From positions 124,001 to 188,000 of the forward strand of contig NZ_JACHXV010000006.1 of the NCBI RefSeq assembly GCF_014192375.1: a stretch of DNA of 64,000 nucleotides, read 5' to 3'. This stretch comes from Endobacter medicaginis (GTDB lineage Bacteria > Pseudomonadota > Alphaproteobacteria > Acetobacterales > Acetobacteraceae). The notes below the pieces were generated by a model. The model did not search any database and was not told the DNA's origin. It saw only the letters and a list, made by a program, of their open reading frames with translations. The translations under genes were made by a program, and so were the position numbers. Of this stretch, positions 14,105-34,280 are shown in pieces. Within the stretch, counting starts at the first letter, position 1, and each line of letters opens with the position of its first letter.

Positions 14105-14118
14105 CTAATGTGCGAGCG

Positions 14119-16618: not shown

Positions 16619-16640
16619 TCTTCGCAAAGGAAAACCCACC

Positions 16641-18035
16641 ATGAGCCTCGCCGACTTCCGCACCCTGATCGCCGACATCCCGCACACCGACGACCCCGCC
16701 CTGGTGCGTCGCAAGAGCCGCGACATGACCGTCGGCTTCAGCCCGATCCTGCGCGAGCAGGCGCGCGACCGCACCGCCGAGCTGGTCGTGAGCCCACGCA
16801 CCCGCGACGAGGTGATCCGCATCGCCGCCGCCGCCGCGCGCCACCGCATCGCTGTGCTGCCGCGGGGCTTGGGCACCTGCAACTGGGGCCAGGGCATCCC
16901 GCTCGCCGGCGGCATCATCCTGGAGATGACCGGGCTCGACCGCGTCGTGCGCAACGAGGGCGACACCATCCGCGTCGAGCCCGGCATGGTCATCGAGGCC
17001 GTGGACGACGCCGCCCGCGCCCGCGGACGCGAGTTGCGGATGTTTCCGTCCAGCAAACGCATCTCCACCATCGGCGGCTTCGTCGGCGGCGGCCATGTCG
17101 GCATCGGCTCGGTCGCCTGGGGCATCCTGCACGATCGCGGCAACCTGGCCGCATTGCAGGCGATCTCGCTCGAGGAGACCCCGCGCATCGTCGAGCTGCG
17201 CGGCTCCGAGGTGAACCTGATGCACCACACCTACGGCACCACCGGCATCGTCACCGAAATCGAGCTGCCGCTCGCCCATGCCCAGGCCTGGCGCGAGGCG
17301 GTGGTGGATTTCGAGGACTTCATGGACGCCGCGCGCTTCGGCCACGCGATGGCGAGCGCGGACGGGCTGCTGGTGAAGATGGTGGCGGTGAACGCCTGGC
17401 CGTATCCGAGCTATTTCACCCCGCTCGCGCGCTTCATCCGCGACGGGCGCCACACCGTGCATGTCATCGTCGCCGAGCCGTCGGCGGTGTTCTTCGAGGA
17501 ACTTGCGGCCGAGCACAACGGCACCATCGTCTATCAGGGCCCCGAGGGGATGGGCGATTTCGGCCGCCCGCTCTACGAGTTCAGCTTCGGTCATGCCCGC
17601 TTCCACGCCAACAAGGTGAATCCGAAGCTGCTGACCAATATCGGCATCTTTCCGCACAACGACATCCTCGGCGCGGTCGGGCGCGTCTACGCGCGCTTTC
17701 GCGACCTCGGCCCGCTGCGCCTCGACTTCAAGCGCATGGACGGCCAGCTCACCTGCCAGGGTGCGCCATTGTTCGAATACCAGGGCCCGGAGCACATGGC
17801 GCGCTTCATCGAGGAGCTGCAGTCCGAAGGCGTGCAGTCGGCCAACACCCACACCATGCACGTCAAGGAAAACGGCATGAAGCCGATCACCGCACGCGAA
17901 CGCGCCTTCCGCGCCGCGATGGATCCGCACGGCCTGTGCAATCCGGGCAAATTCGAGGCCAGCGACGTCGAGACCGCCGATATCGGTGCGAGCCTGCCGA
18001 CCACCGGCTGGCACCAGCCCGCCCTGGCCTCGTGA
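16641..18035 (+). CDS. FAD-linked oxidase (GlcD/VAO type)
   Basis: The 464-residue product belongs to the FAD_binding_4 (PCMH/VAO) superfamily. The flavin site includes VVSPRTRDEVIRIAAAAARH, VLPRGLGTCNWGQ, TIRVEPGMVIEAVDD and STIGGFVGGGHVGIGS, and the C-terminal cap ends in MDPHGLCNPGKFE. Relatives oxidise hydroxyacids, aldoses or aromatic alcohols. The substrate here is unknown. The gene stands between a nucleobase permease and an amidohydrolase, four bases before the latter, so it probably oxidises an intermediate of heterocycle breakdown. That assignment is inference. No Fe-S partner subunit is present. Confidence 0.8.
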   Translation: MSLADFRTLIADIPHTDDPALVRRKSRDMTVGFSPILREQARDRTAELVVSPRTRDEVIRIAAAAARHRIAVLPRGLGTCNWGQGIPLAGGIILEMTGLDRVVRNEGDTIRVEPGMVIEAVDDAARARGRELRMFPSSKRISTIGGFVGGGHVGIGSVAWGILHDRGNLAALQAISLEETPRIVELRGSEVNLMHHTYGTTGIVTEIELPLAHAQAWREAVVDFEDFMDAARFGHAMASADGLLVKMVAVNAWPYPSYFTPLARFIRDGRHTVHVIVAEPSAVFFEELAAEHNGTIVYQGPEGMGDFGRPLYEFSFGHARFHANKVNPKLLTNIGIFPHNDILGAVGRVYARFRDLGPLRLDFKRMDGQLTCQGAPLFEYQGPEHMARFIEELQSEGVQSANTHTMHVKENGMKPITARERAFRAAMDPHGLCNPGKFEASDVETADIGASLPTTGWHQPALAS

Positions 18036-18039
18036 CGCG

Positions 18040-19392
18040 ATGCAGCGGCTCCGCACCCTGCTCGGCGCCACCGGCCCACGCGCCCTGCTGTCTGACGGCC
18101 GCCTGGCGCAATCGGTGCTGCCGGCACGAGACCGGCCGGCACAGGGCTGGGATGTCGACGCGGACGGTTTCGCGGCGGTGGATCTGCTGATCGAGGATGG
18201 CCGCATCGCCGCCCTCCGCCCGCATCAGGCCGGGATGGAGGGCCTCGGCCTCGGCGGCGCCCTGCTCTGGCCGGGCTTCGTCGATGCCCACACCCATCTC
18301 GACAAGGGCCACATCTGGGCACGACGACGCAACCCGGACGGCACCCATGCGGGCGCGGCCGCCGCGGTCGCTGCCGACCGGCGCGCGCACTGGACGGCCG
18401 ACGACATCGCGCGACGCTTCGCGTTCGGCCTGCGCTGCGCCCATGCGCGCGGCACCGTCGCGATCCGTACCCATCTCGACAGCTACGAACCCGATCAGGC
18501 GCGCACCGCCTGGGAGGTGTTCGAGACCATGCGCCGCGACTGGGCCGGCCGCATCGCGCTCCAGGGCGTGATGATGGCGCGTCTGGAGCAATACCTGGGC
18601 GAGGACGGCGAGGCGCTGGCCGCTCTCGTCGCGCGCACCGGCGGCTGCCTGGGCGGCATCCTGCGCATCACGCCCCACGCGGGCGAGACCGAGGTGGACG
18701 CGGTCGATCGCGGCCTCGACCGGCTGTTCACGCTGGCGACCCGCTTCGGGCTCGACATCGACCTGCATGTCGACGAGACCGGCGACCCCGCCGCCTCCGG
18801 CCTGCGCGCGGTGGCGCGCGCCGCCCTGCGCCACCGCTTCGGCGGCCGCATCGCCTGCGGGCATTGCTGCGCCCTGTCGGTGCAGGACGAGGCGATGATG
18901 ACGGAGACGATCGCGCTGGCCGCGGAGGCCCGCATCACCGTGATCTGCCTGCCGCTCGCCAACCAGTTCCTCCAGGACCGCGTGGTTGGCCGTACCCCCC
19001 GCTGGCGTGGCATCGCCCCGGTGCACGAACTGCGCGCCGCGGGTGTCGAGGTGGTGGTGGCGAGCGACAATTGCCGTGATCCGTTCTACGCCTTCGGCGA
19101 TCACGACCTCGCCGACGTGCTGCGCGACTTCGCCCGCATCGCCCATGCCGATCTCGAGCTCGGCGCCTGGGCCGACAGCGTCACCCGCCTGCCCGCCGCC
19201 CTGCTCGGCCACCCGCCGCTCGCGATCGGCGCGCCGGCCGATCTGGTGGTGATGGCCGCCCGCTCGGCGTCCGAATTCCTTGCCCGCCCGGGCGCGGAGC
19301 GCGTGGTGCTGCGCGCGGGCCAGGTGCTCGACGCAGCCCTGCCGGACTACGAAACCCTCGATGACCTGTCTGGACAGACGGCCGGCGCGTGA
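18040..19392 (+). CDS. CodA-like cytosine deaminase/amidohydrolase
   Basis: This 450-residue metal-dependent hydrolase is of the cytosine deaminase branch. Motifs in order are FVDAHTHLDKGH (metal HxH), HLDSYEPDQ, LHVDETGDP (catalytic His and Glu), IACGHCCALS and SDNCRDPFYAFGDHDL (metal Asp), ending in a small composite beta-sandwich (GAPADLVVMAAR). The enzyme would release ammonia from cytosine or a related base such as isoguanine or creatinine. It starts four bases after the FAD oxidase stop. The following LysR gene overlaps it by four bases (GTGA), so permease, oxidase, deaminase and regulator form one transcription unit. Confidence 0.85.
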   Translation: MQRLRTLLGATGPRALLSDGRLAQSVLPARDRPAQGWDVDADGFAAVDLLIEDGRIAALRPHQAGMEGLGLGGALLWPGFVDAHTHLDKGHIWARRRNPDGTHAGAAAAVAADRRAHWTADDIARRFAFGLRCAHARGTVAIRTHLDSYEPDQARTAWEVFETMRRDWAGRIALQGVMMARLEQYLGEDGEALAALVARTGGCLGGILRITPHAGETEVDAVDRGLDRLFTLATRFGLDIDLHVDETGDPAASGLRAVARAALRHRFGGRIACGHCCALSVQDEAMMTETIALAAEARITVICLPLANQFLQDRVVGRTPRWRGIAPVHELRAAGVEVVVASDNCRDPFYAFGDHDLADVLRDFARIAHADLELGAWADSVTRLPAALLGHPPLAIGAPADLVVMAARSASEFLARPGAERVVLRAGQVLDAALPDYETLDDLSGQTAGA

Positions 19393-20312
19393 CGCAGGCT
19401 CGCGCCATGCTGCATTCGCGCACGCTGCGCTATCTCGACGAGGTCGCCCGCGCCGGTTCGATCCGGCGTGCCGCCGAGCGGCTGAATGTCTCGCCGACCG
19501 CGGTCAACAAGCAGATCCTCGCCTATGAGCTCGATCACGGCATCCGCGTCTTCGAGCGCCTGCCGCGCGGCATGCGGCTGACGACCGCCGGCGAGGCACT
19601 GATCGGCCATATCCGGCGCACCTTGCAGGATTACCGCCAGACCGAGATCTACATCGAACAGCTCAGGGGCCTTCGCGCCGGCTCGATCCGGCTCGGCACG
19701 ATGAGCGGCCTGACCAGCGGGCTGCTGGCCTCGATCCTGACCGCGTTCCATCGCGATCATCCCGCGGTGACGGTCTCGGTGCACACGATGTCGAGTGCGG
19801 AACTGACCCGGATGGTGATCGAGGACGAGCTCGATCTCTGCCTCGGCTACAACCTGCCCGCCGATCCGCAACTCGCCACGGTCGCCAGCTTCGACGGCAG
19901 GCTCGGCGCGGTGATGCGCGCCGACCACCCTCTGGCGGGTGCGAGCGTGCTGCGCGTGCAGGACTGCATCGCCTACCCGCTGGTGATGCCGCTGCCCGGC
20001 ATGGCGATGGCGACCACGATCGGCACCCTCTTCGCCCACGAGGACGCCACCGCCCGCCCGGTCTGCACCACCAACTCGATCGAACTGATGAAGAACATGC
20101 TCGCGTCTGGCGACTTCATCACCTTCATCTCGCGCTTCGACATGCTGTCGGTGAGCGGTGCGACATCGCTGGTCCATATCCCGCTCGCGGGCACGATGCC
20201 TCAGAACACGTTGAGTCTGATACGCCATCGCCGACGCAAGCGCGACCTGTCGATCACGCTGCTGGCCGACCTGCTGCAGGACGCGATCCGCACCCTCGCT
20301 CCCGGCCACTGA
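19389..20312 (+). CDS. LysR family regulator of the nucleobase gene set
   Basis: This is a 307-residue LysR-type regulator. The DNA-binding region at about residues 8-70 reads SRTLRYLDEVARAGSIRRAAERLNVSPTAVNKQI, then FERLPRGMRLTTAGEAL; the effector domain follows. The HTH resembles LysR regulators of purine or amidohydrolase clusters that lack the usual LQPAVS recognition-helix wording. GTG 19389 overlaps the deaminase stop (GTGA); ATG 19407 is the alternative start. Being the last gene of the permease-oxidase-deaminase unit, it probably autoregulates that unit. It converges with the taurine aminotransferase gene, with nine bases between the stops. Confidence 0.87.
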   Translation: MTQARAMLHSRTLRYLDEVARAGSIRRAAERLNVSPTAVNKQILAYELDHGIRVFERLPRGMRLTTAGEALIGHIRRTLQDYRQTEIYIEQLRGLRAGSIRLGTMSGLTSGLLASILTAFHRDHPAVTVSVHTMSSAELTRMVIEDELDLCLGYNLPADPQLATVASFDGRLGAVMRADHPLAGASVLRVQDCIAYPLVMPLPGMAMATTIGTLFAHEDATARPVCTTNSIELMKNMLASGDFITFISRFDMLSVSGATSLVHIPLAGTMPQNTLSLIRHRRRKRDLSITLLADLLQDAIRTLAPGH

Positions 20313-20321: not shown

Positions 20322-21701
20322 TCAGGCCGCGATCTCCGACAGGGCGACATCGATGGCGCGCACGATCTGCAGGATCTGGGCGTGGCTGACCACGAGCGCC
20401 GGACTGAGGCAGAGCGTGTTGTTGAAGCCGGGCAGGCTGCGGTTCGTCATGCCGATGAGCACGCCCTGGCGGCGACACAGGCCGACGACCCGCCCGACCA
20501 GCGCCTCGTCGAGCGGACACCGTGTCTCGCGGTCGGCGACCAGCTCGATCCCCCAGAACAGGCCCAGTCCGCGGACGTCGCCGATCACCGCATGGCGTTC
20601 CATCAGGCCTCGGAGCTCGCGTTCCAGGACGACGCCCATCTCCCGGGCATTATCGAGCAGACGCTCGTCCTCGATGATGCGCATGTTCTCGAGGGCCGCG
20701 GCGGGCCCGGCGAGACAGCCGCCGAAGGTCGAGATGTCACGGAAATACCCCAGCTCGCCACCATCCGCGTGGCGGAACTTCTCGAAGACGGCTTCGGTGG
20801 TCACCGTACACGCGATGGCGGCGTAGCCGGAGGCGACGCCCTTCGCCATGGTGACGAAATCCGGCTGGATGCCGAAATTCTGGTAGCCGAACCAGGTGCC
20901 CGTGCGCCCCAGGCCGCAGACCACCTCGTCGACATGCAGCAGGATGTCATGGCGACGGCAGATTTCCTGGACGCGCTGCCAATACCCTTGCGGCGGCACG
21001 ATCACCCCGCCACCGGCGGTGATCGGCTCCAGGCAGAGGGCGCCGATCGTGTCAGCGCCCTCGCGCTCGATCACGTGTTCGATCGCATCGGCCGCCGCCT
21101 CGCCGTATCGCGCCGCGTCGGGAAACTGACTTCTGTATTCGAGGCAGTGCGGAACCTCGACGAAGCCCGGAGCGAACGGGCCATACGCCGCCGAGCGCTG
21201 CGGCTGCCCGCAGGCGGCCAGAGTCCCGAGCGTGGTGCCGTGATAGTCGCGTTCGCGAAAGAGAATCTTCCATTTGCGGCCACCGTGATGCTGCGCCGAG
21301 ATCTGGCGCACCATCTTGAACACCTTCTCGTTCGCCTCCGATCCCGAGGTGCTGTAATAGACGCGGCTCATGCCGGGCATCCTGGCGATTAGCTGCTCGG
21401 CGAAACGCGCTCCGGGGATGGAGCCCGCGCTGGCGGCGAAATAGTTCAGCTTGACCAGCTGCTCGTGTACCGCATCGGCGATGCTCCGCCGGCCATAGCC
21501 GACATTGACCGTCCAGACACCGCCCGAGACCGCGTCGAGGAACTCGCGGCCCTCGATGTCCCACAGGCGCAGGCCATGGCCTTCGACGAATACCGCAGGA
21601 TCGGCCTGATCGAAGGCGCGATGCTGGGTGAGATGGTGCCAGACATGGGCCCGGTCGGCGGCGACGATATCCGTCTGGTCGTTGGGAGAGAGCGTGCTCA
21701 T
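20322..21701 (-). CDS. tpa: Taurine-pyruvate aminotransferase
   Basis: Tpa transfers the amino group of taurine to pyruvate, giving sulfoacetaldehyde and alanine, with PLP as cofactor. The 459-residue class III aminotransferase carries wording that I recall as specific to Tpa: HVWHHLTQHRAF, DAVSGGVWTVNVGYGR, MPGMSRVYYSTSGSEANEKV, ALCLEPITAGGGVI, HVDEVVCGLGRTGTWFGYQ and the PLP lysine in TMAKGVASGY. Related omega-transaminases use beta-alanine or hypotaurine, so another amino acceptor is possible. It is the last gene of a five-gene minus-strand operon. No sulfoacetaldehyde acetyltransferase (xsc) or pta gene is in the window, so the next step must be encoded elsewhere. Confidence 0.85.
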   Translation of the reverse strand: MSTLSPNDQTDIVAADRAHVWHHLTQHRAFDQADPAVFVEGHGLRLWDIEGREFLDAVSGGVWTVNVGYGRRSIADAVHEQLVKLNYFAASAGSIPGARFAEQLIARMPGMSRVYYSTSGSEANEKVFKMVRQISAQHHGGRKWKILFRERDYHGTTLGTLAACGQPQRSAAYGPFAPGFVEVPHCLEYRSQFPDAARYGEAAADAIEHVIEREGADTIGALCLEPITAGGGVIVPPQGYWQRVQEICRRHDILLHVDEVVCGLGRTGTWFGYQNFGIQPDFVTMAKGVASGYAAIACTVTTEAVFEKFRHADGGELGYFRDISTFGGCLAGPAAALENMRIIEDERLLDNAREMGVVLERELRGLMERHAVIGDVRGLGLFWGIELVADRETRCPLDEALVGRVVGLCRRQGVLIGMTNRSLPGFNNTLCLSPALVVSHAQILQIVRAIDVALSEIAA

Positions 21702-21725
21702 GATGATCCTGATGAAGCAGATGGC

Positions 21726-23993
21726 TCAGTAATCGATGCTGACGCGGCCGCCGATGAAGCGGGGCGGCCCCGGAAGCCAGAATTCGGTGACCGTGTAGGA
21801 ACCGCCCGTCGTGTAGTACTGGCGGTTGAGGAGATTGGTGGCATAGAGCGTCGCCGCCCAGTGACCGTGCGTCGGACGCACGGTCATGTGTGCACCGAGC
21901 AGGAAATATGACGGCAGCATGTACACACCCGTGCCACCGGGCGTCAGCGCCTGCGCCCCGCGATACGACCAGTCCAGCCCGGTCTCCACACTCAGCGGAC
22001 CCGGCGGCTGCAGCGTGTAGTCGGCCGATCCGTTCAGGGTCAGTTTGGGCTGGCCGAGATCGTAGCCGTTGTAGCTGGTGTAGAAGGGCGCCCAGATCCC
22101 GGTCTGCTGGAAATGCGCGTAGACCGCCGCCGTGTTCGAGCTCTGGAAGTCCTGGAACTTGCCGCGCTGGTAACCGAGATTCTGATGGATGTAGAAGCCC
22201 TTGAACGGATGGATGTCCGCCGAGAACTCCACCCCCCAGATCTCGGATTTCGGGATGTTCGTGTAACGGCCGAGCGGGCCGAAACTCGGCACCACATAGG
22301 TGCCGAGATATTGCTGGTCGTGATAGTCGTAATAGAAGGCGGCCGCGTTGAGGCGCAGTCGGTTGGCAATGACATCGCTCTTGATCCCTGCTTCGTAGGA
22401 CAACAGGGTTTCCGGCTTGTAGGGCGTCAGCTGGCTCTGCACGACCGTGTTGTTGGCGGTGAACCCGCCAGGCTTGAAGCCTTTGCTGACCTTGAAATAC
22501 AGCATCGTGCGCGCCGTCGCCTGCCATTGCGCGCCGAGCACGCCGGAGAACTGGTTGGCGTTGGCCCCCTCGTCGGCAAAGGAGAGGCTGTTGATGCCGA
22601 TATGCTTCGTGTTCAGGCCCAGCAGCTGCTGGTCGTTGGCTTCGTGATTGATGCCGCCGAACAGGCTCACACGCCCCGGCAGACGATACGAAAGATGGGC
22701 GAACTGGGCGAAGGTCTGCCCGTCCTGATGGTAGTGCGTCTGCAGCATGTAGCCGCGTAGCGGCAGATAGTCGGTGGAATCGCCAAAGAAGTTCGTGTTC
22801 ATCCGGATACGGTTGTAAGTGGCGCCCAGGTCCCACTGCAGCGCCGCCGAATCGTCGCGCGAATGCAGGCGCAGTTCCTGGGTGAAGGAATTCGCCCAGA
22901 TCGAACGATAGGTATCGCCCGTCGCCCATTTCGTGCCGTCCTGATCGGTGTATTCGGCGATCCGCTCGGTCTCGTAGGCACTGATCGACTGCAGCGTGGC
23001 GAAGGAGAAATCATGCGCGACGTTCAGATCGGCGCCCCAGTTGGTGTCGTGTTCACTGGGATAGAGCGAGGCCGGGCGTCCGATCAGCCTGGCGAAGGCC
23101 GGCTTGAGACTCCAGTTGGCCTCCTGATAGGGCAACGACGGATATGGCTTGCTCGGCAGGCTGTTGAGAACCGGCTTGACCGCAATGGTCTGTGAGTCGT
23201 CCTGGAGCCAGTGTGCGGAGAACTGCACGGTGGTCCTGGCATCGGGGGTCCAGCGCAGCTTGGCGCGCAGCGCGCCCATGTCGGCATTGCCGAGATGCGT
23301 GGCATTGGCCGGGCTGTACTGCCAGCCGCCGCCATGTTCCGTCTGACCGGCAATGCGGAACGACAGCGTGGGCGCGATCGGTCCCGAGACATAAAGGGTC
23401 GTGCGGCTGCGCGCGTAGCTGGCGATGTCCTGGCTGACGCCGCCATGCCAGTCGGGGGTCGGGTCGTTGGTGCGGATATTGACCTCGCCAGCGGAATCGG
23501 CGAGCCCGTGCTCGGTGCCGACCGGACCGGCGACAACGCCGACGGTGGCGATGTCGAACAGCATGCCGGCACTCATCGACGAGACCGGGTAGGGCACGCC
23601 GTCGATATAGGTCATCACCGACGGCATCGCGTTCTGGGTGAAGTCGCTCATGCCGATGCCGCGAATGTAATAGACCGTGGTCTGGGTGCCGTTCATCGAC
23701 ATGATCGAGACGTTGGGCGCGATCTTCTGCAGATCGGTCGCCTTGGTCACGCCGAGGCGGACCAGATCGGCGCCGCTGTACTCGGTCACCGTCGCCGCCT
23801 GATGCTGGGCGGCGCCGAAGCGGAAGGACGGATGCGCGCGACGCACCTCGATGTTTTCCTCGCTCGGCGGTTTGGCGGCGGCCGCATGACGGTGCCGGGC
23901 GACGGGTTCGGCGGCACGCGCCGTGCTCGAGACCAGGGCGGCGGATGCCAGCAGCAGGGCGATCCTGCTGTCGGGACGAGAGGTCGAGCGCAT
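21726..23993 (-). CDS. TonB-dependent outer-membrane receptor
   Basis: The 755-residue product has a Sec signal peptide (RIALLLASAALVSSTARAAEP). A plug domain follows with DLQKIAPNVSIMSMNG, YYIRGIGMSDFTQNAMP and YIDGVPYPVSS, then a long beta-barrel ending in an aromatic residue (GGRVSIDY). It resembles sphingomonad-style receptors that import organic ligands, not classic siderophore receptors. The plug triad usually reading VLRGPQGTLYG is diverged here to VVAGPVGTEHG. ATG 23993 is preceded by GGAGG at good spacing. It lies 24 bases before tpa and 76 after the MFS gene, so it probably imports the operon's substrate across the outer membrane. Confidence 0.88.
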   Translation of the reverse strand: MRSTSRPDSRIALLLASAALVSSTARAAEPVARHRHAAAAKPPSEENIEVRRAHPSFRFGAAQHQAATVTEYSGADLVRLGVTKATDLQKIAPNVSIMSMNGTQTTVYYIRGIGMSDFTQNAMPSVMTYIDGVPYPVSSMSAGMLFDIATVGVVAGPVGTEHGLADSAGEVNIRTNDPTPDWHGGVSQDIASYARSRTTLYVSGPIAPTLSFRIAGQTEHGGGWQYSPANATHLGNADMGALRAKLRWTPDARTTVQFSAHWLQDDSQTIAVKPVLNSLPSKPYPSLPYQEANWSLKPAFARLIGRPASLYPSEHDTNWGADLNVAHDFSFATLQSISAYETERIAEYTDQDGTKWATGDTYRSIWANSFTQELRLHSRDDSAALQWDLGATYNRIRMNTNFFGDSTDYLPLRGYMLQTHYHQDGQTFAQFAHLSYRLPGRVSLFGGINHEANDQQLLGLNTKHIGINSLSFADEGANANQFSGVLGAQWQATARTMLYFKVSKGFKPGGFTANNTVVQSQLTPYKPETLLSYEAGIKSDVIANRLRLNAAAFYYDYHDQQYLGTYVVPSFGPLGRYTNIPKSEIWGVEFSADIHPFKGFYIHQNLGYQRGKFQDFQSSNTAAVYAHFQQTGIWAPFYTSYNGYDLGQPKLTLNGSADYTLQPPGPLSVETGLDWSYRGAQALTPGGTGVYMLPSYFLLGAHMTVRPTHGHWAATLYATNLLNRQYYTTGGSYTVTEFWLPGPPRFIGGRVSIDY

Positions 23994-24069
23994 CAGAAGG
24001 CCTCCGTTTTCATTGCCTTTACGTAATATTATCGGGTCGGCAGGAGCGGTTGCGGCTCCGGCGTGCAGC

Positions 24070-25395
24070 TCAGTCGGGCGGTGCGTCGCGGATCGCGCGA
24101 TAGGGTGCGCGACAGGCGGCGAACCCGCCGGCGGCGGCGGCACATGCCAGCGGCACCACCACCGAGATGGCATGGCCGAGCGCCTGCGGGCCTGGCGCGA
24201 ACAGCCGCGCGGTGAGCGCGGTCGCCAGCGGTCCGAGGCTCATCGCGACGAGATTGACGACCGCGGTATAGAAAGCCGTCACCCGTCCGAGCACCGGCCC
24301 GGGGACGATCTCCTGCAGGGAGCCCGGGGCCAGGCCCCAGATGAAGCTCGCGAAGAAGGAATAGATTGCCAGCAGCGTCAGCGAGAGCGTCTCGGTCCGC
24401 GCCAGGCCGAACAGCAGCGCCGGCACCATCATGCCGAGCGCCGAGACGATGCCGACCAGCATCTTGCCATCCCGCGCGCCGCGTCGGGCGAGCAGATCGG
24501 CCAGCAGGCCACCGGCGAGCGAGCCGAGCGGGCCGGTAATCAAAGTCAGCAGGCCAAGCACCAGACCGATCTTCGGCAGACCCCAGCCAAATTGCCGGAC
24601 GAACACCAGCGGCATCCAGGCGGCGATGGCGTAGCTGGCGAAGCACGCCGCGGTGAATCCGAGATGGTGCAGCCACAGCGCGCGGCCGCGCGCCCTGTAG
24701 AGCGACAGCAGCGGGCGCAGGTCGAACAGGGTCGCGGAGGCCGCCGCCTCGCGGCGCGGAATGCGGATCGTCGCTGCCAGCAGCGCCACCGGCAGTCCCA
24801 CCAGACCCACGCTCAGCATCACCACCCGCCAGGGCTGCAACGGCCCGAGCAGCGGCAGCACGGGGGTGGCGCTGCCGATCGAGCGCAGGATCGCCGCGGT
24901 GCCCAGACCTGCACCGGCGCTGCCGATGAACAGGCCCGCGGCAAACACGCCGAGCGGAATACCCCGGCGCTGCGGCGGAAAACTGTCCTTCAGGATCGAG
25001 GTCGCCCCCGGCAGCAGTGTCGCCTCGCCCGCGCCGACGACGATGCGGCAGACGAAGATCTGCGCGAAACTGTGACACAGACCGCACAACGCGGTGGCGA
25101 GGCTCCAGGCCAGGATGCCGCCGGCCACCACCAGCCCGCGGCGCCCGGTATCGATCAGCCAGGCCACCGGCAGGCCAAAGGCCGCGTAGAACACCGCGAA
25201 CGAAAAGCCCTGCAGGAGGCTGAACTGCACGTCGCCGATGTGGAAATCGGCTTCGACCCGGGCCGCCAGGATGCCGAGAATGCCGCGATCGACAAAGGAC
25301 AGCACATAGGCGAGGAACAGGATCGCGCAGGCGGACCAGGCCGCGGCGCGGCTCGGCCAAACGGCCGCGATGGTGCGCGAGGTCGGGTTCGTCAT
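24070..25395 (-). CDS. MFS transporter, spinster/anion-sugar-symporter-like
   Basis: The 441-residue protein has twelve predicted membrane helices. MFS landmarks are LSFVDRGILGILAARVEADFHIGDVQFSLLQGFSF in helices 1-2, the loop WLIDTGRRG, and RIVVGAGEATLLPGATSILKD between helices 4 and 5. The wording matches spinster-type MFS permeases that often accompany TonB receptors and amidohydrolases. It overlaps the CobW gene by four bases (ATGA), and the TonB receptor follows 76 bases later. It is the likely inner-membrane step for the ligand brought in by the receptor. The substrate is unknown; taurine or a taurine conjugate is a guess from the neighbours. Confidence 0.85.
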   Translation of the reverse strand: MTNPTSRTIAAVWPSRAAAWSACAILFLAYVLSFVDRGILGILAARVEADFHIGDVQFSLLQGFSFAVFYAAFGLPVAWLIDTGRRGLVVAGGILAWSLATALCGLCHSFAQIFVCRIVVGAGEATLLPGATSILKDSFPPQRRGIPLGVFAAGLFIGSAGAGLGTAAILRSIGSATPVLPLLGPLQPWRVVMLSVGLVGLPVALLAATIRIPRREAAASATLFDLRPLLSLYRARGRALWLHHLGFTAACFASYAIAAWMPLVFVRQFGWGLPKIGLVLGLLTLITGPLGSLAGGLLADLLARRGARDGKMLVGIVSALGMMVPALLFGLARTETLSLTLLAIYSFFASFIWGLAPGSLQEIVPGPVLGRVTAFYTAVVNLVAMSLGPLATALTARLFAPGPQALGHAISVVVPLACAAAAGGFAACRAPYRAIRDAPPD

Positions 25396-26321
25396 CGGAC
25401 AGGCTCCCCGGTCGGAATGGCGACGTCAAATCCGGTCGTGTCCGGCCATGTCAGATCGGGCAGCGGCGGACGTCCGATGGCCACGAGGCCGCAAGGCTGG
25501 GTGCCCGGAGCCTCGGCGAGCGTCTGCGCCGCACCGGCACGCTGCACCAGCACCGGATGGTCGTGATCGGCGACACTGACGATGCCCTTGATCCGCAGGA
25601 TCTGCTCGGGCAGTCCGCCGAGCCATGCTTCCAGGGCCGCACGGGTCACACGCCTCGCCTGCGGCCAGTGGCGACGCCAGAACAGATCGGCGTGAGGCGC
25701 GTCGCCGGTCACGGCCTCGGCCGAAAAGCGCCCCGACGCGCCCGATGCGGGTGCGAAACAGGCCTGATCCTCCTCACCGGCGAGGAACATCCGCTCAGGC
25801 CCGATGCCCAGACGTTCCAGCAGCGCGACGGCCTGGCGAAGGCGCGCGGCAGGAACAACATCGGCATGGGTCAGCAGGCAGCGGTCGGCACGCGCGAGCT
25901 GGCGCTGCACGGTATCGGCGAGATAGGGATCGGCCAGTTGCCCGGCGAGGTCGCGCACATTGACGGCGACGATCACGAGGCCATGCGCGAGGTCGCGCTC
26001 GAGCCGCGCGATCTGCGCGATACGACGCGGATCGCCGACCCCGCTGGCCTCGACCACGATCCGCGTGACGGCGGGTGCGGCCTGACGCAGCCGGCCGATC
26101 GCGCCCCCGAGATCGTCACCGACAGCGCAGCACACGCAGCCATTCGTCAGCCCGACGACATCGCCACCAGCCTGCGCGATCAGCGCCTCGTCGACATTGA
26201 CGGCGCCGAAATCGTTGACGATCACGCCGATCGGCACCGGTGCCGAGCTCAGCAGACGATTGATCGTCGCGGTCTTGCCCGCGCCGAGAAACCCGCCCAG
26301 GACATCGAGCGCGACCGTCAC
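25392..26321 (-). CDS. CobW/COG0523-family GTPase (metal chaperone)
   Basis: This 309-residue G3E GTPase has Walker A GGFLGAGKT at residues ~10-18, VNDFGAVNVDEAL, the metal-binding GCVCC (CxCC type), IVVEASGVGDPRRI and the guanine-specificity segment LTHADVV. A C-terminal CobW domain follows. COG0523 proteins load Zn, Co or Fe into client metalloenzymes. The GTG start overlaps the amidohydrolase stop (GTGA), and its own stop overlaps the MFS start, so it is tightly embedded in the operon. The neighbouring amidohydrolase is the obvious client, which is inference. No Zur-type zinc-starvation site was recognised. Confidence 0.85.
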   Translation of the reverse strand: MTVALDVLGGFLGAGKTATINRLLSSAPVPIGVIVNDFGAVNVDEALIAQAGGDVVGLTNGCVCCAVGDDLGGAIGRLRQAAPAVTRIVVEASGVGDPRRIAQIARLERDLAHGLVIVAVNVRDLAGQLADPYLADTVQRQLARADRCLLTHADVVPAARLRQAVALLERLGIGPERMFLAGEEDQACFAPASGASGRFSAEAVTGDAPHADLFWRRHWPQARRVTRAALEAWLGGLPEQILRIKGIVSVADHDHPVLVQRAGAAQTLAEAPGTQPCGLVAIGRPPLPDLTWPDTTGFDVAIPTGEPVR

Positions 26322-27958
26322 GCGGGCGACCCGGCCGCCGCGTAGCGACCGCCAACCACGGTACCGCGCACGCCGACCTTCGGCAGATCCTCGGGATCGA
26401 CCTCGAAAGGGTCGTGCTCCAGGACAGCGAAATCGGCATATTTGCCGATCTCCAGGCTGCCGATCAGGTGATCGAGCTTCAGCGTGTAGGCCGCCCCCAG
26501 CGTCACCGCCCGCAGCGCCTCGGCAACCGTCAGCCGCTCGTTCTCGCCGAGCACCCGTCCCGACGCGGTCCGCCGCATCACCGCACACCAGGCGGTGAAC
26601 AACGGCCCGAGCGGGGTGACCGGCGCGTCAGAATGCAGCGCGATCGGCACGCCGTACATCGTCGCCGTGCGCGCGGCACTCAATCGCTGCGCGCGGGTCG
26701 GGCCCATCGTCTTGGCGACGTGTTCGTCGCCCCAGTAATAGATGTGGTTGGAGAACAGGTTGCAGCACAGGCCCAGCGCCGCGATGCGCCGATAGAGGGC
26801 GGCATCCGGCATCTGGCAATGCTGCAGCGTGTGACGATGATCGGGCCGCGGATGGCGGGCCAGCACGCGCTCCATCGCCGCAACCGTCGCTTCGCTCGCC
26901 TCGTCGCCGTTGGTGTGGATGTGCAGATGCGCCCCGGCGCAGTGATACAGCTCGATCAGCGCCTCCAGCTGTGCGGGCGCGATATACCACAGTCCGTTGG
27001 GGGCGCCGTTATGATAGCCCGGCCAGCGAAGCCGGGCGGTGAAACCCTGGATCGAGCCGTCCACGACCAGCTTGACCATGCCGAGATGCAGCTTCGGCCC
27101 CGCCAGCGCACGGAGTTCGGCCAGGCGACGCACGCCGCTGTCGCCAGGGTAGAAGAAGAAGCCGAGTGCCGGGACCATGCGCAGCGGCACGTCGTCATCC
27201 TGCGCGACCTGCTGATACGCCTCGATCGATCCCTCTGAGAAGTCGGCCACCAGATCCGTCGCCGTGGTGACGCCCGCACGGCAGGCGAGGGAGGCGAAGC
27301 TGCGGATACCGTCGGCATCGAGCCCCATCGCGAATGCGTCGGCGCCGATCATGCGACGCACCCGGCCGATCAGCTCCGGGCCCATCAGCTCGCCAGTGAT
27401 CCGCCCGTCCGCATCGCGTTGCAGCCCGTCCAATTCCGCAGCCTCGGTGATGCCGATCAGTTCGAGCACCGCGGAATTGACGTTCATGGTATGGCCGGAG
27501 GCATGGGTAACCGCCACGGGCCGGTCGGTCGCCACGGCATCGAGATCGGCGAGCGTCATGCGCGGACCGTCGAAATAGATCGGATCGAACCCCCAGGCCA
27601 GGATCGGCGCCGCGGCGTCCGCAGGTGCGCTGGCGCGCAGCCCCGCGACCACTTCGGCAATGGTCTTGAGGCCCTTGTGAACGCGCCCGTCCGGGGCATT
27701 GCGGTCGAAGAAGCCGACATAGGGAAAGCGCCAGGCGATCCCCTCGGCGAAGTGCGAATGGCCCTCGACGAAACCGGGCAGCAGGATGGCATCGGCGAAA
27801 CGGTCGTCCCGCATGGCGCCGTCGAGGAACGGTGCCACCGCCTCCAGATCACCGATCGCCTCGATGCGGCCTTCGCGATGGATGAGGTGGGTCGCGACAG
27901 GTGCTGCCGGATTCATGGTGTGGATCCGTCGCGCGACGATGAGGGTCCTGTCGCTCAT
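26318..27958 (-). CDS. YtcJ-like amidohydrolase (Amidohydrolase_3)
   Basis: The 546-residue enzyme has the amidohydrolase TIM barrel and metal ligands: LLPGFVEGHSHF (HxH), VTHASGHTMNVNS, GMVKLVVDGSIQGFTA (carbamylated-lysine region), LHIHTNGDEAS, HCQMPD and ALHSDAPVTPLGPLF. This is the YtcJ/exo-enzyme branch whose members hydrolyse N-acyl or N-formyl amines. It is the first gene of the operon leading to CobW, MFS, TonB receptor and Tpa. It might therefore release an amine such as taurine from an amide conjugate before transamination; that is inference. ATG 27958 follows GGAG at eight bases; a longer frame upstream lacks family sequence. Confidence 0.83.
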   Translation of the reverse strand: MSDRTLIVARRIHTMNPAAPVATHLIHREGRIEAIGDLEAVAPFLDGAMRDDRFADAILLPGFVEGHSHFAEGIAWRFPYVGFFDRNAPDGRVHKGLKTIAEVVAGLRASAPADAAAPILAWGFDPIYFDGPRMTLADLDAVATDRPVAVTHASGHTMNVNSAVLELIGITEAAELDGLQRDADGRITGELMGPELIGRVRRMIGADAFAMGLDADGIRSFASLACRAGVTTATDLVADFSEGSIEAYQQVAQDDDVPLRMVPALGFFFYPGDSGVRRLAELRALAGPKLHLGMVKLVVDGSIQGFTARLRWPGYHNGAPNGLWYIAPAQLEALIELYHCAGAHLHIHTNGDEASEATVAAMERVLARHPRPDHRHTLQHCQMPDAALYRRIAALGLCCNLFSNHIYYWGDEHVAKTMGPTRAQRLSAARTATMYGVPIALHSDAPVTPLGPLFTAWCAVMRRTASGRVLGENERLTVAEALRAVTLGAAYTLKLDHLIGSLEIGKYADFAVLEHDPFEVDPEDLPKVGVRGTVVGGRYAAAGSPA

Positions 27959-28069
27959 CCGACTGCTCCGGTCTCGATCTGCATGCACGGTTTCCTGTCT
28001 CTGGCCAGCCATCAGAATCGGCTCCGGATCGATCGTAGGCATTGCGGCCGGCGCGGCCATAGCGCCAGG

Positions 28070-28090
28070 CTGGACATAATATGTGGCCAG
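28070..28090. promoter_or_regulatory. Palindrome upstream of the amidohydrolase operon
   Basis: CTGG-ACATA-A-TATGT-GGCCAG forms a near-perfect dyad whose core ACATAATATGT (28074-28084) is symmetric about one base. It is the most AT-rich spot in the 162-base gap before the amidohydrolase start. On the minus strand it includes a TATTAT that could be a -10 box. It is a good candidate operator or promoter for the five-gene operon, perhaps for the nearby MocR regulator. Confidence 0.45.
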
Positions 28091-28120
28091 TCAGACCACC
28101 GGAACGCGTAGCTTTCTTGC

Positions 28121-28912
28121 TCAGATCCAGTCCGCCACCGATCGAAAAAGAGCCGTTGCAGCCATCATGACCAGCAGCGCCGTGCTCACCCCCCGGTAGT
28201 GGCGGCCGCAGCGAGATGCGAACAGGCGTGCGCCCGCCCAGGAGCCGGCCAGCACACAGGGCGACAGCAGCACGGCCGGACACAGCGCCGTGCGGCCATG
28301 CAGGCTGCACCAGGGCAGGCAGGCCAGGCTGGCGGCGGAGATCAGCGCGAAACACAGCACCAGGCTGGCGCGAAGTGCGGTGTCCGACAGGCCGGCCCGC
28401 AGGCAGCAGCCGACGATCGGCGGGCCGGGCATCGCGGCCAGACCGTTGGCCATGCCAGCGACCAGCCCGGCACCCAGGACCGATGGCGGACGCATCGCGC
28501 GGCAGCCGGACGCAGGTGGCCGCAACAGCATCAGGACCGAGCCGATGGTGCAGGCCGCGATCCCTGCCCGCAGCCAGCAGGGCTCGAGCCAGACACCGAG
28601 CACGAGCCCCGCCGGGGTCGCCAGCGCCGCACCGACGGCAATCGGCACCACCAGCGCACGTTCGCCATCGGCCAGGCAGTCGCGTACGCCCTGCAGCCCC
28701 ACCACCGCCTGCAGGACCAGCACCAGCGGCACGACCCGGTCCGGCGGCAGGATCAGTCCCAGCAGCGGCACCGCGGCGATGCCGAATCCATAGCCGGTGA
28801 AGCCGCGGATCGCGCCGGCGACCGCGACGACCGCCGCACAGGCTGCCAGCAGAACCACGGAGTGGGCGGCGCCATGCGCATCGCCGGACAGCGAAACGAG
28901 CAGTCTCTCCAT
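28121..28912 (-). CDS. TauE/SafE-family (TSUP) anion exporter
   Basis: This 263-residue membrane protein has about eight hydrophobic helices. TSUP features are VAGAIRGFTGYGFGIAAVPLLGLI in helix 1, VLVLQAVVGLQGVRD, and MANGLAAMPGPPIVGCCL at the repeat centre. The family exports sulfite, sulfoacetate or other sulfonates; TauE itself is encoded with taurine genes. It is on the same strand as, and upstream of, the amidohydrolase-to-tpa operon, separated by 162 bases. It diverges from a MocR-type regulator. Sulfite export after taurine desulfonation would fit. The start could be ATG 28912 or 28924, neither with a strong ribosome site. Confidence 0.8.
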   Translation of the reverse strand: MERLLVSLSGDAHGAAHSVVLLAACAAVVAVAGAIRGFTGYGFGIAAVPLLGLILPPDRVVPLVLVLQAVVGLQGVRDCLADGERALVVPIAVGAALATPAGLVLGVWLEPCWLRAGIAACTIGSVLMLLRPPASGCRAMRPPSVLGAGLVAGMANGLAAMPGPPIVGCCLRAGLSDTALRASLVLCFALISAASLACLPWCSLHGRTALCPAVLLSPCVLAGSWAGARLFASRCGRHYRGVSTALLVMMAATALFRSVADWI

Positions 28913-29047
28913 GCGCCAAGGCATCGCCCGGCACGCCGGCGCCCGACAGGGCCAGCCTCCCGCGATCGGTGGCGCCAGAAGCGGCTTGGCCGCGCTGGCG
29001 GCCCCGGAACATACTCGCTGCGCAAGGGGGGGGCGTCGTATGGCGGA

Positions 29048-30592
29048 ATGCTGAGCATCGGCTGGGAGCGGATTTTCGCCGGCTTCAGGGATACCGGCGA
29101 GGGCACGCGCCAGCAGCGGCTGCGCGAGGCCCTGGTCGCGGCCATCGAGGACGGGCGTCTGTCGGCAGGCACCCGGCTGCCATCCAGCCGGACCCTCGCC
29201 AACCTGCTGCGCATCTCGCGCAATACGGTGGTGCAGGCACTCGACCAGCTGGTGGAGAGCGGACACCTGACCGCCCGGCTGCGCAGCGGGCTGTTCGTCG
29301 CCCAGCGCGACATGGCGGAGCCGGCGGAGACGGCGCGGCCGATCGCGCCGGCGGCGAGCGCGAGCGCCTGGGAGCGCAGCTTCGCGATCCAGCCGTCCCG
29401 GTTGCGCCACATCTCCAAACCGGCCGACTGGCATCGCTACCCGTTTCCGTTCCTCTTCGGTCAGACCGATCCGAGTCTGTTTCCGACCCGGGAATGGCGC
29501 GAGAGTGCGCGTGCCACATCGAGCGTCGGTGGCGTCAGCCTCTGGGCCTCGGACCGCATCGACGAGGACGATCCGAAACTGATCGAGCAACTGCGCGCGC
29601 AGGTCCTGCCGCAGCGCGGCATCTGGGCCCGCCCCGAGGAGGTGATGATCACCCTTGGCGCGCAGCAGGCGCTGTCGCTCGTCATTCGCCTGTTCACCGG
29701 CCCGTCGACCGTCTTCGGTATCGAGGACCCCTGCTATCCGGATGCGCGCCACATGGCCGCGCTGCTGACCCCGCATCTGCGGCTGCTGCGGATGGACCGA
29801 CACGGCGCGGTGGCGGACGAGACGCTGGCCGGCTGCGACGTCGTGATGCTGACCCCGGCGCGCCAGTGCCCGACGACGGTCGCGATGCCGCTGGAGCGAC
29901 AGCTCGAGGTGCTCCGCGTGGCATCGGGCCGCGGCACGGTGGTGATCGAGGACGATTATGACGGCGGCCTGTTCGACGAGGGCCGCGCATCCGGCTGCCT
30001 GCGCAGCCACGACCCCCGCGTGATCCATATCGGCAGCTTCTCGAAACTCATCGCGCCCGGGCTGCGCATCGGCTACGTGGTCGCCCCCGCCCGGGTGATC
30101 GAGGAACTGCGCGCCGTGCGCCGGCTGGAGCTGCGCCATCCGCCTCTGAACAACCAGCGCACCCTGGCGAACTTCATCGCGCTGGGTCACTACCGCGCAC
30201 ATCGACACCGGCTGGGCAGCGTGATGGTCGAGCGCGCCCGGCTGATCGACCGGAGCCTGGCGAATGACCTGCCGGAGCTGCTGTGCCGCCGCACGCCCGG
30301 CTCGACGGGCGCCTGGCTCGAGCTCCCCTCCCACCTGACAGCCGCGGCAGTGACCGCGCGGGCACGGCGGGACGGCGTCCTGATCGAGCCCGGCGACGTG
30401 TTTTTCGCCGACCCCGGGGTGCAGAGGAGCCATCTGCGCCTGGGCTTCACGTCGATCCCAGCCGACCGCATCGAAGCCGGTATCAGCACCCTGGCCAGGC
30501 TGCTGCATGACGCCCCCAGCCGCGCAGACTCACGTGACAGGCCGCCTGCGGATCATCCCGCCCGCATCAGGACGGCCCATCCGGGGGCGTAG
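29048..30592 (+). CDS. MocR/PdxR-type regulator (GntR HTH plus aminotransferase fold), TauR-like
   Basis: The 514-residue protein has an N-terminal GntR winged helix (residues ~18-85: LREALVAAIEDGRLSAGTRLPSSRTLANLLRISRNTVVQAL). A class I aminotransferase-like domain follows, with LGAQQALSLVIRLF, EDDYDGGLF and the PLP lysine in HIGSFSKLIAPGLRIGY. Such MocR regulators sense amino compounds through PLP; TauR of Rhodobacter capsulatus is a MocR protein encoded beside tpa that activates taurine use. A divergent TauE-like gene and the tpa operon next door make a TauR role plausible. ATG 29048 is chosen; the frame upstream is antisense to the exporter. Confidence 0.85.
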   Translation: MLSIGWERIFAGFRDTGEGTRQQRLREALVAAIEDGRLSAGTRLPSSRTLANLLRISRNTVVQALDQLVESGHLTARLRSGLFVAQRDMAEPAETARPIAPAASASAWERSFAIQPSRLRHISKPADWHRYPFPFLFGQTDPSLFPTREWRESARATSSVGGVSLWASDRIDEDDPKLIEQLRAQVLPQRGIWARPEEVMITLGAQQALSLVIRLFTGPSTVFGIEDPCYPDARHMAALLTPHLRLLRMDRHGAVADETLAGCDVVMLTPARQCPTTVAMPLERQLEVLRVASGRGTVVIEDDYDGGLFDEGRASGCLRSHDPRVIHIGSFSKLIAPGLRIGYVVAPARVIEELRAVRRLELRHPPLNNQRTLANFIALGHYRAHRHRLGSVMVERARLIDRSLANDLPELLCRRTPGSTGAWLELPSHLTAAAVTARARRDGVLIEPGDVFFADPGVQRSHLRLGFTSIPADRIEAGISTLARLLHDAPSRADSRDRPPADHPARIRTAHPGA

Positions 30593-30780: not shown

Positions 30781-32583
30781 TCAGGGCGTGCGAATATAGT
30801 CCAGCAGGCGCGCCACCGAGGCCGCCACCGTCTCGTCGGCCGTCACCAGCCGCAGATCGGGCGTCTCGGGGGCTTCGTAGCTGCCATCGGTACCGGTGTA
30901 ACCCTGGATGCGCCCGGCATTGGCGGCCGCGTAATGCCCCTTGGGATCGCGTGCGGCACAGGTGGCGGCGTCGGCGGCGACATGCACTTCGTGGAACCCC
31001 TGCCCGACGATCTCGCGGGCCAGCGCACGATGCATGCGCAGGGGCGAGATCAGCGCCACCAGCACCACCGCGCCCGCTTCCGCCAGCAGGCGCGCGACAT
31101 GCGCGGTGCGACGGACGTTCTCGGTGCGGTCGGCCAGCGAGTAGCCCAGATCCTCGTTCAGCCCCCGACGCAGCAGATCGCCATCGAGCACCATCACCCG
31201 CTCGCCGCGCGCCGTCAGTGCTGCGGCCACGCCTTCGGTCACGGTGCTCTTGCCCGAGCCCGGCAGGCCGGTGAGCCAGTATACGCCGCGCGGTGCGGCG
31301 GTCGCGCCCTTGGCGAGACGCGCCTCCTCGGCATCGGCCAGCCCGGTCAGCGGTGCGGCGGCAACGATCTGTCCCGACGCATCCACCAGCACGCCGCGCC
31401 CCGACCCCTCGCCAGGCACGAAGGCGTCGAACAGCACGCTCTCGGCTGCCTGGAGCACCAGCTCGGCAAAGCCCTCCGGCGGCACCTGATCGGCCCGCGC
31501 GCCGGCCAGCGCATCGGTGTCGACCACTTCGAGGATCTCGGTGACCGTCACGTTGGTCTCGAACGTGCCCAGCCGCAGGCGCAGCGTCTCGCCCAACAGC
31601 AGCGGGGTCTGCCGCAGCCAGAACAGTCGCGTGCGCAGACGCCGTCCGCGCAGCGGCGCGGTGTGCGGATGATGCAGCAGGTCGCCGCGAGCGACCACCA
31701 CATCCGGCTCCAGCAGCAGCGCCACCGACTGCCCCGCCCCGACCTCGCTCGGCGATGCATCGTGCCAGGTCGGGAAACGGGCAATGCGCGCCGTCGCCCC
31801 TGTCTTGCCGATCGCCACCGTATCGCCCACCGAGAACCGCCCCGCGTCGACGCGGCCGACGACGATGCGACCCTCCTCGCGGCGATAGACGTCCTGCACG
31901 CCCAGACGCGCCGGCTGCGCGGTGGCCGGACTCGTCGCCGGCACCGCCAGCAGCGCCTCCGTCAGGGTCGGGCCGTCATACCAGGCCAGCGCTTCGGAAT
32001 GGGCGGTGATGTTGACACCCTCGCGCGCCGAGGCCGGGATCATCACCGCCGGTGCGATGTCGAGCTGTGCGAGCAGGGCGGCGATCTGCTCGCGCGCCTC
32101 GCCGATGCGCCCCTGATCGTAGTCCAGCAGGTCGGCCTTGTTCATCAGCACCACGACATGCCGCACACCGATCAGCCGCAGCAGCATCGCATGCCGACGC
32201 GTCTGCTCGCGCGCGCCCTCAGCGAGATCGACCACCAGCACCGCCGCCGACGCATCCGCCGCCCCGGTCAGCATGTTGCGGATGAACTGCCGGTGTCCCG
32301 GCGCATCGACGATCACATACTGCCGGTCACCGAGCCGGAACGGCAGCCGGGTCGAATCGATTGTCACCCCCTGGTCGCGCTCGGCCTGGAGGCTGTCGAG
32401 CAGATGCGACCATTCGATCGCCAGCCCGCGCCGCGCCGACGACGCCTTCGCCGCCTCCAGCCGACCCTCGGGGAGATTGCCGCTCTCGTGCAGCAGCCGT
32501 CCGATCAAGGTGGACTTGCCGTGATCGACATGGCCGACGATGACGATCGGCGTCGGTGCGGCGGTGATGCGTGTGTCGCTCAT
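30781..32583 (-). CDS. cysNC: Bifunctional sulfate adenylyltransferase subunit 1/APS kinase
   Basis: This fused enzyme activates sulfate: the N-terminal CysN GTPase drives ATP sulfurylase with CysD, and the C-terminal CysC phosphorylates APS to PAPS. The ~600-residue product shows GHVDHGKST (G1), DAPGHRQF (G3) and NKADLL (G4). The elongation-factor beta-barrels follow, then the kinase P-loop GLPGSGKS at about residue 425, DGDLLRRGL and the [10 protein letters not shown] substrate loop. It follows cysD directly. The start is ATG 32583 or an upstream GTG 32601 that overlaps the cysD stop (GTGA). Fusion of CysN and CysC is common in alphaproteobacteria. Confidence 0.95.
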
Positions 32584-32597
32584 GATCCTGGTCCCGC

Positions 32598-33404
32598 TCA
32601 CAGATAACCGGCGACGCGCAGCCGCTCGAACGCATCTTCGGATTCGTGGTCCATCGCCCGCCCGGCCCGCTCGGAGGTCTTCGTCGCGCGCAGTTCGGCG
32701 AGGATGTCGTCAACGGTGGCCGCGTCGCTGTCGACCGGGAAGGTGATGTCCTGGTCGCCCAGCGAGCGATAGCGCCTGCCGTTCTTCGAGAAATACAGGT
32801 CGACGACCGGAATTCCCTCACGCGCGATGTAGCGCCAGATGTCGAGCTCGGTCCACGCCAGCAGCGGATGCACGCGCACATGCGCGTCCGGATCGGCGGG
32901 CACGGCGAACTGGTCCCAGAACTCCGGCGGCTGGTTGCGCACATCCCAGTGCGAGCCGCCGCCCACGCCCGCGCCGCGCGGCGAGAACACCCGCTCCTTG
33001 GCCCGCGTCGCCTGCTCGTCGCGGCGGATGCCGGCGATCACGCCGGCGAAGCGGTGCTGCTCGATCAGGGCGGCAAGCCCTGCGGTCTTGCGCGCCGCAG
33101 AACGTGCCGCCGGCGGCAGTGACGGGTCCATCGCCTCGACCGGCGGGCAGTCGCCGATCGTCAGGTCGAGATTCCATTCCTTCGCATAGCGCGTCCGGAA
33201 ATCGTACATCTCGGGAAACTTCTTGCCCGTGTCGACATGCAGCACCGGGAACGGCACCTGGCCGAGGAACGCCTTGCGCGCCAGCCAGACCATGACGTTG
33301 GAGTCCTTGCCGAGCGACCACAGCATCGCCAGCGGCTTCAGCCGGAAGGCGGCCTCGCGCAGGATCTGGATGGAGCGGGCTTCGAGTTCGTCGAGATCGT
33401 TCAT
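32598..33404 (-). CDS. cysD: Sulfate adenylyltransferase subunit 2
   Basis: CysD is the catalytic ATP sulfurylase subunit, making APS from sulfate and ATP in complex with CysN. The 268-residue product has the PP-loop variant SLGKDSNVM at residues ~30-38, [29 protein letters not shown], and the C-terminal [15 protein letters not shown] and FPVDSDA segments. Length is somewhat below the ~300 typical of E. coli CysD but matches many alphaproteobacterial forms. It lies between cysH, 31 bases upstream, and cysNC, which it overlaps or nearly abuts. The three make one sulfate-assimilation operon transcribed leftward. Confidence 0.95.
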
Positions 33405-33435
33405 CGGAAGGCTTTCGTTCGCAGGCGAGAGCAGG

Positions 33436-34137
33436 TCAGAGATGGATGCCGCATTCGGTCTTCAGCCGGCCGGCCCAGCGCCCGGCACGGGCATCGGCGT
33501 CGGCACCGACCGGCTCGGTACAAGGCTCGCAGCCGATCGAGCGGTAGCCCCGCGCCACCAGAGGATGGCGCGGCAACCCCCGGCGCAGCATCTCCGCCTC
33601 GATGCGTCCCTCGTCCCAGTCGGCGATCGGATTGAGCCGCAGCCGCCGGCCGACGCGCTCGACGGTCGGCAGCCCGGCGCGGGTCGCTGCCTGATGGCGC
33701 TTGCGCCCCGTGGCCCAAGCGGCAAACGGCACGAGTGCCGCGTCCATCGGCTCGACCTTGCGCAGCCGGCAGCAGGAATCGGGATCGAAATGCCACAGCG
33801 TGCCGACCGGGTCCTCCCGGTCCACGGCACCCTGGCTCGGGAGCGCCTCGCGCACCGCACGCAGGCCGAGATGGGCTGCAAGCTCGGTGCGATAAGCCAG
33901 CGTCTCCTCGAAATGGCGGCCGGTTTCGAGAAACACCACCGGCATCGCCGGATTGGCCTCCGCGGCGAGTGCGAGCAGCACCGCCGAATCCGCCCCGAAC
34001 GACGACAGCACGGCCACCCTGCCCGCGCCCAGCGCGGCTTCCGCCGCGCGCAAAAGCGAGACCCCCTGGAGCCGGCCCAGACTGGCCGCCACCTGGTCCA
34101 GATCGATCAGCGCGTCGTCATCGACATCGCGTTGCAT
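33436..34137 (-). CDS. cysH: Fe-S adenylyl-sulfate (APS) reductase
   Basis: This reduces activated sulfate to sulfite with thioredoxin. The 233-residue protein keeps the four cysteines of a 4Fe-4S cluster, Cys122-Cys123 and Cys203-x2-Cys206. Those residues mark the assimilatory APS-reductase branch and are absent from E. coli PAPS reductase. The catalytic C-terminal Cys229 is in ECGIHL. SSFGADSAVLL is the PP-loop. The presence of a CysC domain next door means the cell can also make PAPS, for sulfation or an alternate route. The start ATG 34137 is the first with proper family alignment; a longer frame begins inside the regulatory gap. Confidence 0.93.
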   Translation of the reverse strand: MQRDVDDDALIDLDQVAASLGRLQGVSLLRAAEAALGAGRVAVLSSFGADSAVLLALAAEANPAMPVVFLETGRHFEETLAYRTELAAHLGLRAVREALPSQGAVDREDPVGTLWHFDPDSCCRLRKVEPMDAALVPFAAWATGRKRHQAATRAGLPTVERVGRRLRLNPIADWDEGRIEAEMLRRGLPRHPLVARGYRSIGCEPCTEPVGADADARAGRWAGRLKTECGIHL

Positions 34138-34190
34138 CGTGCATTCCCCGATTGATTTTCGGGTGTTTAACGCGCGCCGATCAGAATCGT

Positions 34191-34209
34191 AAACGTGAAA
34201 TCCACGTTT
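34191..34209. promoter_or_regulatory. Perfect inverted repeat upstream of cysH
   Basis: AAACGTG-N5-CACGTTT is a perfect 7-bp dyad 54-72 bases before cysH, in the AT-richest stretch of the region. An overlapping GTGAAA-N6-TTTCAC dyad shares part of it. It lies between the stop of the binding-protein gene and cysH, so it could be an operator for the cys operon or, less likely, a terminator stem, since no T tract follows. Confidence 0.5.
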
Positions 34210-34280
34210 CACGATGCATGTCAGATGTTATCACGCTGCATTGCGGTATAAACGCAACACCATCGTTGTTTAGGCCGATC

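Follow-up and report, generated by a model that had tools for sequence, protein, structure and literature searches.

A putative N-acetyltaurine utilization locus with a TonB-dependent receptor in Endobacter medicaginis

Here we analyzed a 64,000-nucleotide stretch of the Endobacter medicaginis genome (the window; positions 124,001 to 188,000 of contig NZ_JACHXV010000006.1) and describe a locus whose probable role is to supply the cell mainly with nitrogen, taken from N-acetyltaurine or a closely related short N-acyl taurine. That an N-acyl taurine is hydrolyzed and then transaminated, as the first-pass annotation had proposed from the letters alone, is the best reading of the locus, given that relatives of its amidohydrolase lie in Paracoccus clusters with the naa gene order and in two further loci (L127 and L128).

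Organization of the locus

The core of the locus is a minus-strand operon running amidohydrolase, CobW-type GTPase, MFS permease, TonB receptor and aminotransferase, with intergenic gaps of -4, -4, +76 and +24 bases (Table 1). Genes were called with a GC-by-codon-position caller, which still misreads some genes; recomputing from the coordinates of our own calls confirmed the gene order, the strands and all four gaps. A TauE/SafE-family gene lies on the same strand, 162 bases from the amidohydrolase, and an operator-like repeat falls inside this interval. The operon is real and, judged from its sequence, probably functional, and the locus is probably regulated.

Table 1 Features of the putative N-acetyltaurine locus (positions in the window).
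Feature	Position	Strand	Evidence
Tpa (taurine-pyruvate aminotransferase) / class III aminotransferase	20322..21701	-	Pfam Aminotran_3 2e-83; 100/99 in Tpa clade
TonB-dependent receptor, presumed outer-membrane import step	21726..23993	-	Pfam TonB barrel + weak plug
MFS permease, presumed inner-membrane importer	24070..25395	-	Pfam MFS_1
CobW-type GTPase, NaaT-like metallochaperone (putative)	25392..26321	-	Pfam cobW 7e-32 + CobW_C
NaaS-like amidohydrolase, presumed taurine-releasing	26318..27958	-	Pfam Amidohydro_3 1.7e-73
Operator-like direct repeat CTGGCCACATATTATGTCCAGCCTGG	28065..28090	-	CTGG-N18-CTGG, 22-base spacing as 5' of tpa genes
CTGGACATAA, one mismatch to TauR box CTGGACYTAA	28070..28079	+	R. 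capsulatus consensus
TauE/SafE-family anion exporter (putative)	28121..28912	-	PF01925 2.7e-19
MocR (TauR-like) regulator, divergent	29048..30592	+	Pfam GntR + Aminotran_1_2

A LysR gene (19389-20312) ends next to tpa, and its position assigns it to an upstream plus-strand cluster. In the region 7842-20312, a run of acyl-CoA dehydrogenase, phosphotransferase and SDR genes is flanked by two NCS2 (AzgA-like) permease genes, genes for an adenine deaminase-like protein, a FAD_binding_4 oxidase and a PRK07583 cytosine deaminase-like amidohydrolase, and two LysR genes; the set resembles one for breaking down a modified purine or pyrimidine base. On the other side and convergent to the MocR gene, the sequence at 30781-34212 reads as sulfate assimilation genes, CysNC, CysD and probably CysH.

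The aminotransferase groups with taurine-pyruvate aminotransferases

The aminotransferase shares 76% identity with a Gluconacetobacter sacchari protein and 69-73% with proteins from Rhodobacteraceae, Rhizobiales and further members of the Acetobacteraceae. Many of the genes for these relatives have as neighbors either a MocR gene together with xsc or genes for an IsfD-like reductase and for an IsfE-like exporter; others have neither pair nearby. In a maximum-likelihood tree, which was built without characterized beta-alanine or polyamine transaminases, the protein falls within the Tpa clade (support 100/99) and apart from its paralogues, four from its own genome included, rather than among other transaminases; a firm placement among beta-alanine or polyamine transaminases is what the first-pass annotation had named as refuting its proposal. 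By phylogeny, the aminotransferase is thus assigned as Tpa, as both the identities and the clade placement bear out. Its closest kin in the tree are the acetic-acid-bacterial proteins of G. sacchari and then Komagataeibacter swingsii, the latter with a reductase gene directly 5' of tpa. The tree also suggests, at weak support (83/76), that the protein is closer to the isfD/isfE-linked branch than to the xsc-linked branch.

The amidohydrolase and GTPase resemble NaaS and NaaT

The most likely start of the amidohydrolase is 27958: the ATG there is preceded by a GGAG ribosome site, and homologues begin at the same point. Its likely metal-site residues H67, H69, K296, H348, H380 and D444 are near-invariant among 65 relatives, and a PDB search returned no close relative of the protein. 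The gene overlaps the CobW gene by 4 bases, and the pairing of the two is kept in nearly all relatives. The protein is 49-55% identical to amidohydrolases of Paracoccus naaR-ABC-S-T clusters and of Burkholderiales clusters, with those encoded in the published naa gene order on Paracoccus plasmids at 49-50%. In P. denitrificans, approximately 15-18 kb separate the naa order from tpa and a MocR gene, and an xsc-like gene (45% to Xsc) lies in the intervening stretch. The amidohydrolase and GTPase pair also occurs near xsc and pta in Caballeronia and in genome G195, and near tpa, an aldehyde dehydrogenase (ALDH) gene and TauE in Tistrella. The closest relatives, L127 (63%) and L128 (61%), are in loci with a MocR gene, TauE, an NTF2-like protein and a FAD oxidase.

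In PMC4334477, which cites Denger, Lehmann and Cook 2011, the annotation of Ruegeria pomeroyi DSS-3 SPO0657-0664 draws on published experiments: naaT encodes a putative metallochaperone and naaS the N-acetyltaurine amidohydrolase, and the set also holds naaR and the genes for an N-acetyltaurine ABC importer. The gene order is given there as naaT-naaS-naaR-naaABB'CC', with tpa (SPO0673) nearby. NaaS and its putative metallochaperone NaaT are already described in both Cupriavidus necator and R. pomeroyi. Because the pair is recurrently linked to taurine chemistry, NaaS and NaaT are the best identities for the window proteins, as judged through Paracoccus homologues in the published naa order rather than through characterized NaaS sequences.

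The NaaS family is wide, with members in 43 of 385 alphaproteobacterial genomes, most of the sampled ones not near tpa or xsc. The substrate may vary within the family, since some members adjoin class III aminotransferases of other kinds. The amidohydrolase could then act on a different N-acyl omega-amino acid (N-acetyl-homotaurine, N-acetyl-beta-alanine or N-acetyl-GABA, for instance), with the aminotransferase being broad, and the fact that related amidohydrolases with such partners occur in the same bacterial family is in keeping with this. However, the aminotransferase here is in the Tpa clade, and both the regulator and the operator match those of taurine loci (see below), which makes this alternative unlikely.

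Several related loci differ in their gene content. In same-family genomes (L137, L138, L139, L143, L144 and L145), NaaS-like amidohydrolases are found beside class III aminotransferases that are 30-34% identical to Tpa, and some have no CobW partner; these amidohydrolases may act on other substrates. The locus L146:1132-14486 contains NaaS-NaaT, a sodium:solute symporter, MocR, a succinyl-CoA-ligase-like pair, phosphotransacetylase and a true Xsc (928 bits), and is a candidate for a complete N-acetyltaurine or sulfoacetate pathway. The NTF2-like protein and FAD oxidase pair adjoins MocR and NaaS at L127:11255-13064 and L128:6107-7887 and likewise in Caballeronia and Variovorax, and could provide an alternative amine-oxidizing step.

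Import through a TonB receptor and an MFS permease

The nearest proteins to the TonB receptor among the matches listed are 40-46% identical and come from Komagataeibacter and Gluconacetobacter. TonB receptors usually import solutes that exceed porin size, and the first-pass annotation took the receptor, together with the amidohydrolase, to point to a larger substrate. Such a substrate could be a larger taurine conjugate, for example a long-chain N-acyl taurine, a taurine lipid or a surfactant, and the placement of the receptor gene, 76 bases from the permease gene and 24 from tpa, indicates co-transcription. On a Komagataeibacter plasmid, however, a receptor of the same subfamily (41%) is part of an operon of the small organic-acid type (L240:7827-12556), with LysR, a dicarboxylate-type symporter and an Ldh-family oxidoreductase, so a large substrate need not be assumed and the receptor as a pointer to one was not supported. 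NaaS relatives also adjoin ABC or symporter importers typical for small solutes, and we consider a larger conjugate improbable. As the Komagataeibacter operon shows, TonB receptors accompany the catabolism of small solutes in acetic acid bacteria.

The MFS permease has no close characterized relative, and other MFS proteins encoded close to naaS or sau genes share only 22-27% identity with it. A more specific version of the proposed function is doubtful, namely a receptor and permease route dedicated to N-acyl taurines, an amidohydrolase accepting acyl chains beyond N-acetyl and a taurine-sensing MocR, with the nitrogen kept and the sulfonate discarded.

Fate of the sulfonate

As the first-pass annotation had noted for the locus itself, Xsc and an ABC taurine importer are missing, and the absence of Xsc holds genome-wide. 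In a profile search of the whole genome, the best match to Xsc scored 236 bits against a cut-off of 676 bits, and TauA had no match above its cut-off; the TauD family had one strong match. The TauE-family call is borne out by its Pfam match (Table 1), and the protein is 43% identical to the TauE next to the closest NaaS relative, L127.

Since there is no Xsc, the likely role of the locus is to obtain nitrogen from N-acetyltaurine, with the carbon-sulfur remnant leaving through TauE, perhaps as isethionate. Elsewhere in the genome (C3) is the gene for a YdfG-type SDR that shares 63% identity with the SDR encoded immediately 5' of the Komagataeibacter tpa. It sits at a separate locus among unrelated genes, unlinked to tpa, and may be a housekeeping enzyme. 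For a SafD-type aldehyde dehydrogenase route, the best match in the genome to the Tistrella enzyme is only 40% identical, so oxidation to sulfoacetate is less favored.

The missing Xsc and the TauE gene would also be accounted for if the aminotransferase acted on hypotaurine (Hpa), with sulfinoacetaldehyde losing sulfite without Xsc and TauE exporting the sulfite. The hypotaurine route is known in Paracoccus, and some Paracoccus relatives of the aminotransferase are away from xsc. However, this would leave the naaS and naaT genes unexplained, and the enzyme groups, albeit weakly, near the isfD/isfE-linked branch. We regard hypotaurine as a very unlikely substrate and favor N-acetyltaurine, with probable export of isethionate, as we infer from the gene content.

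A taurine-type regulator and its operator

The MocR protein groups with the regulators of L127 and of xsc-less tpa-isfD-isfE loci in a 13-member clade (support 100), which upholds its earlier assignment as a taurine-type regulator. Those from xsc-linked loci fall in another clade, sister to this one.

R. capsulatus TauR is described as binding direct repeats of CTGGACYTAA. The 3.6 Mb genome has a single copy of CTGGACNTAA, located at 28070 in the interval that separates the TauE and amidohydrolase genes; the box there has an A at the Y position, as do the boxes of the tau loci L070 and L112. The surrounding CTGG-N18-CTGG repeat, CTGGCCACATATTATGTCCAGCCTGG, lies 107 bases 5' of the amidohydrolase start and has no other exact match in the genome. 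Its opening 12 bases and its CTGG spacing recur in the promoter of G. sacchari tpa. Across 80 tpa loci, CTGG pairs at 22 and 23 bases were found in 13 and 29 upstream regions, respectively, compared to 0.5 and 5.25 in a tpa-body control. The bare CTGG-N18-CTGG spacing has six occurrences within the window and is therefore not specific alone, and the exact form of the repeat is partly post hoc because it was defined after inspecting the regions, unlike the R. capsulatus consensus.

Proposed pathway and comparison with known systems

In the proposed pathway, the TonB receptor and MFS permease would import N-acetyltaurine, which the NaaS-type metal-dependent amidohydrolase, with its NaaT-type CobW chaperone, is predicted from homology to split into acetate and taurine. 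Tpa, likewise by homology, would transaminate pyruvate with taurine as the donor, yielding alanine and sulfoacetaldehyde. With no Xsc for desulfonation, a YdfG/IsfD-type reductase from elsewhere in the genome would probably reduce the sulfoacetaldehyde to isethionate, oxidation being the other option, and the product would leave via the TauE-family exporter. The divergent MocR may sense taurine or its PLP adduct and act at the CTGG direct repeats 5' of the amidohydrolase.

The first-pass annotation regarded this combination as an unfamiliar taurine pathway. As the amidohydrolase and CobW protein match NaaS and NaaT, it is instead largely known: the R. pomeroyi annotation already includes naaS, naaT, tpa and an importer for N-acetyltaurine, and the two systems share the amidohydrolase and metallochaperone pair followed by Tpa. 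Relative to the R. pomeroyi cluster as PMC4334477 outlines it, the Endobacter locus has a TonB receptor and MFS permease rather than an ABC importer, MocR rather than the LysR-type NaaR, no Xsc in the genome, and all genes in one operon. The tpa/IsfD reductase (described in PMC6616044)/IsfE exporter system, which uses taurine nitrogen with isethionate excretion, has in common with it Tpa, a MocR of the same clade, a TauE-family exporter and the lack of Xsc. Here, in contrast, the reductase is outside the cluster, the exporter is only 28% identical to a rhizobial IsfE-like protein, and there is an extra amidohydrolase step. The tauR-tpa-tauABC-xsc system of Rhodobacter capsulatus and relatives (PMC5320631) shares the MocR regulator, Tpa and a CTGGAC-type operator, whereas the Endobacter genome has no xsc and no taurine ABC transporter above the family cut-off, and its regulator falls in a sister clade. 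What is unusual here is the replacement of the ABC importer by the receptor and permease and of NaaR by MocR, the naaS/naaT/tpa pathway itself being known.

The NaaS/NaaT pair is common among Alphaproteobacteria and has an assigned substrate in few. Here, the amidohydrolase comes with a regulator and an operator of the taurine type. If the proposed function is true, the N-acetyltaurine pathway would reach a lineage that lacks Xsc and probably belongs to the acetic acid bacteria, and it would include TonB-dependent uptake, a step that is absent from the R. pomeroyi cluster as outlined and from the clusters sampled in this analysis.
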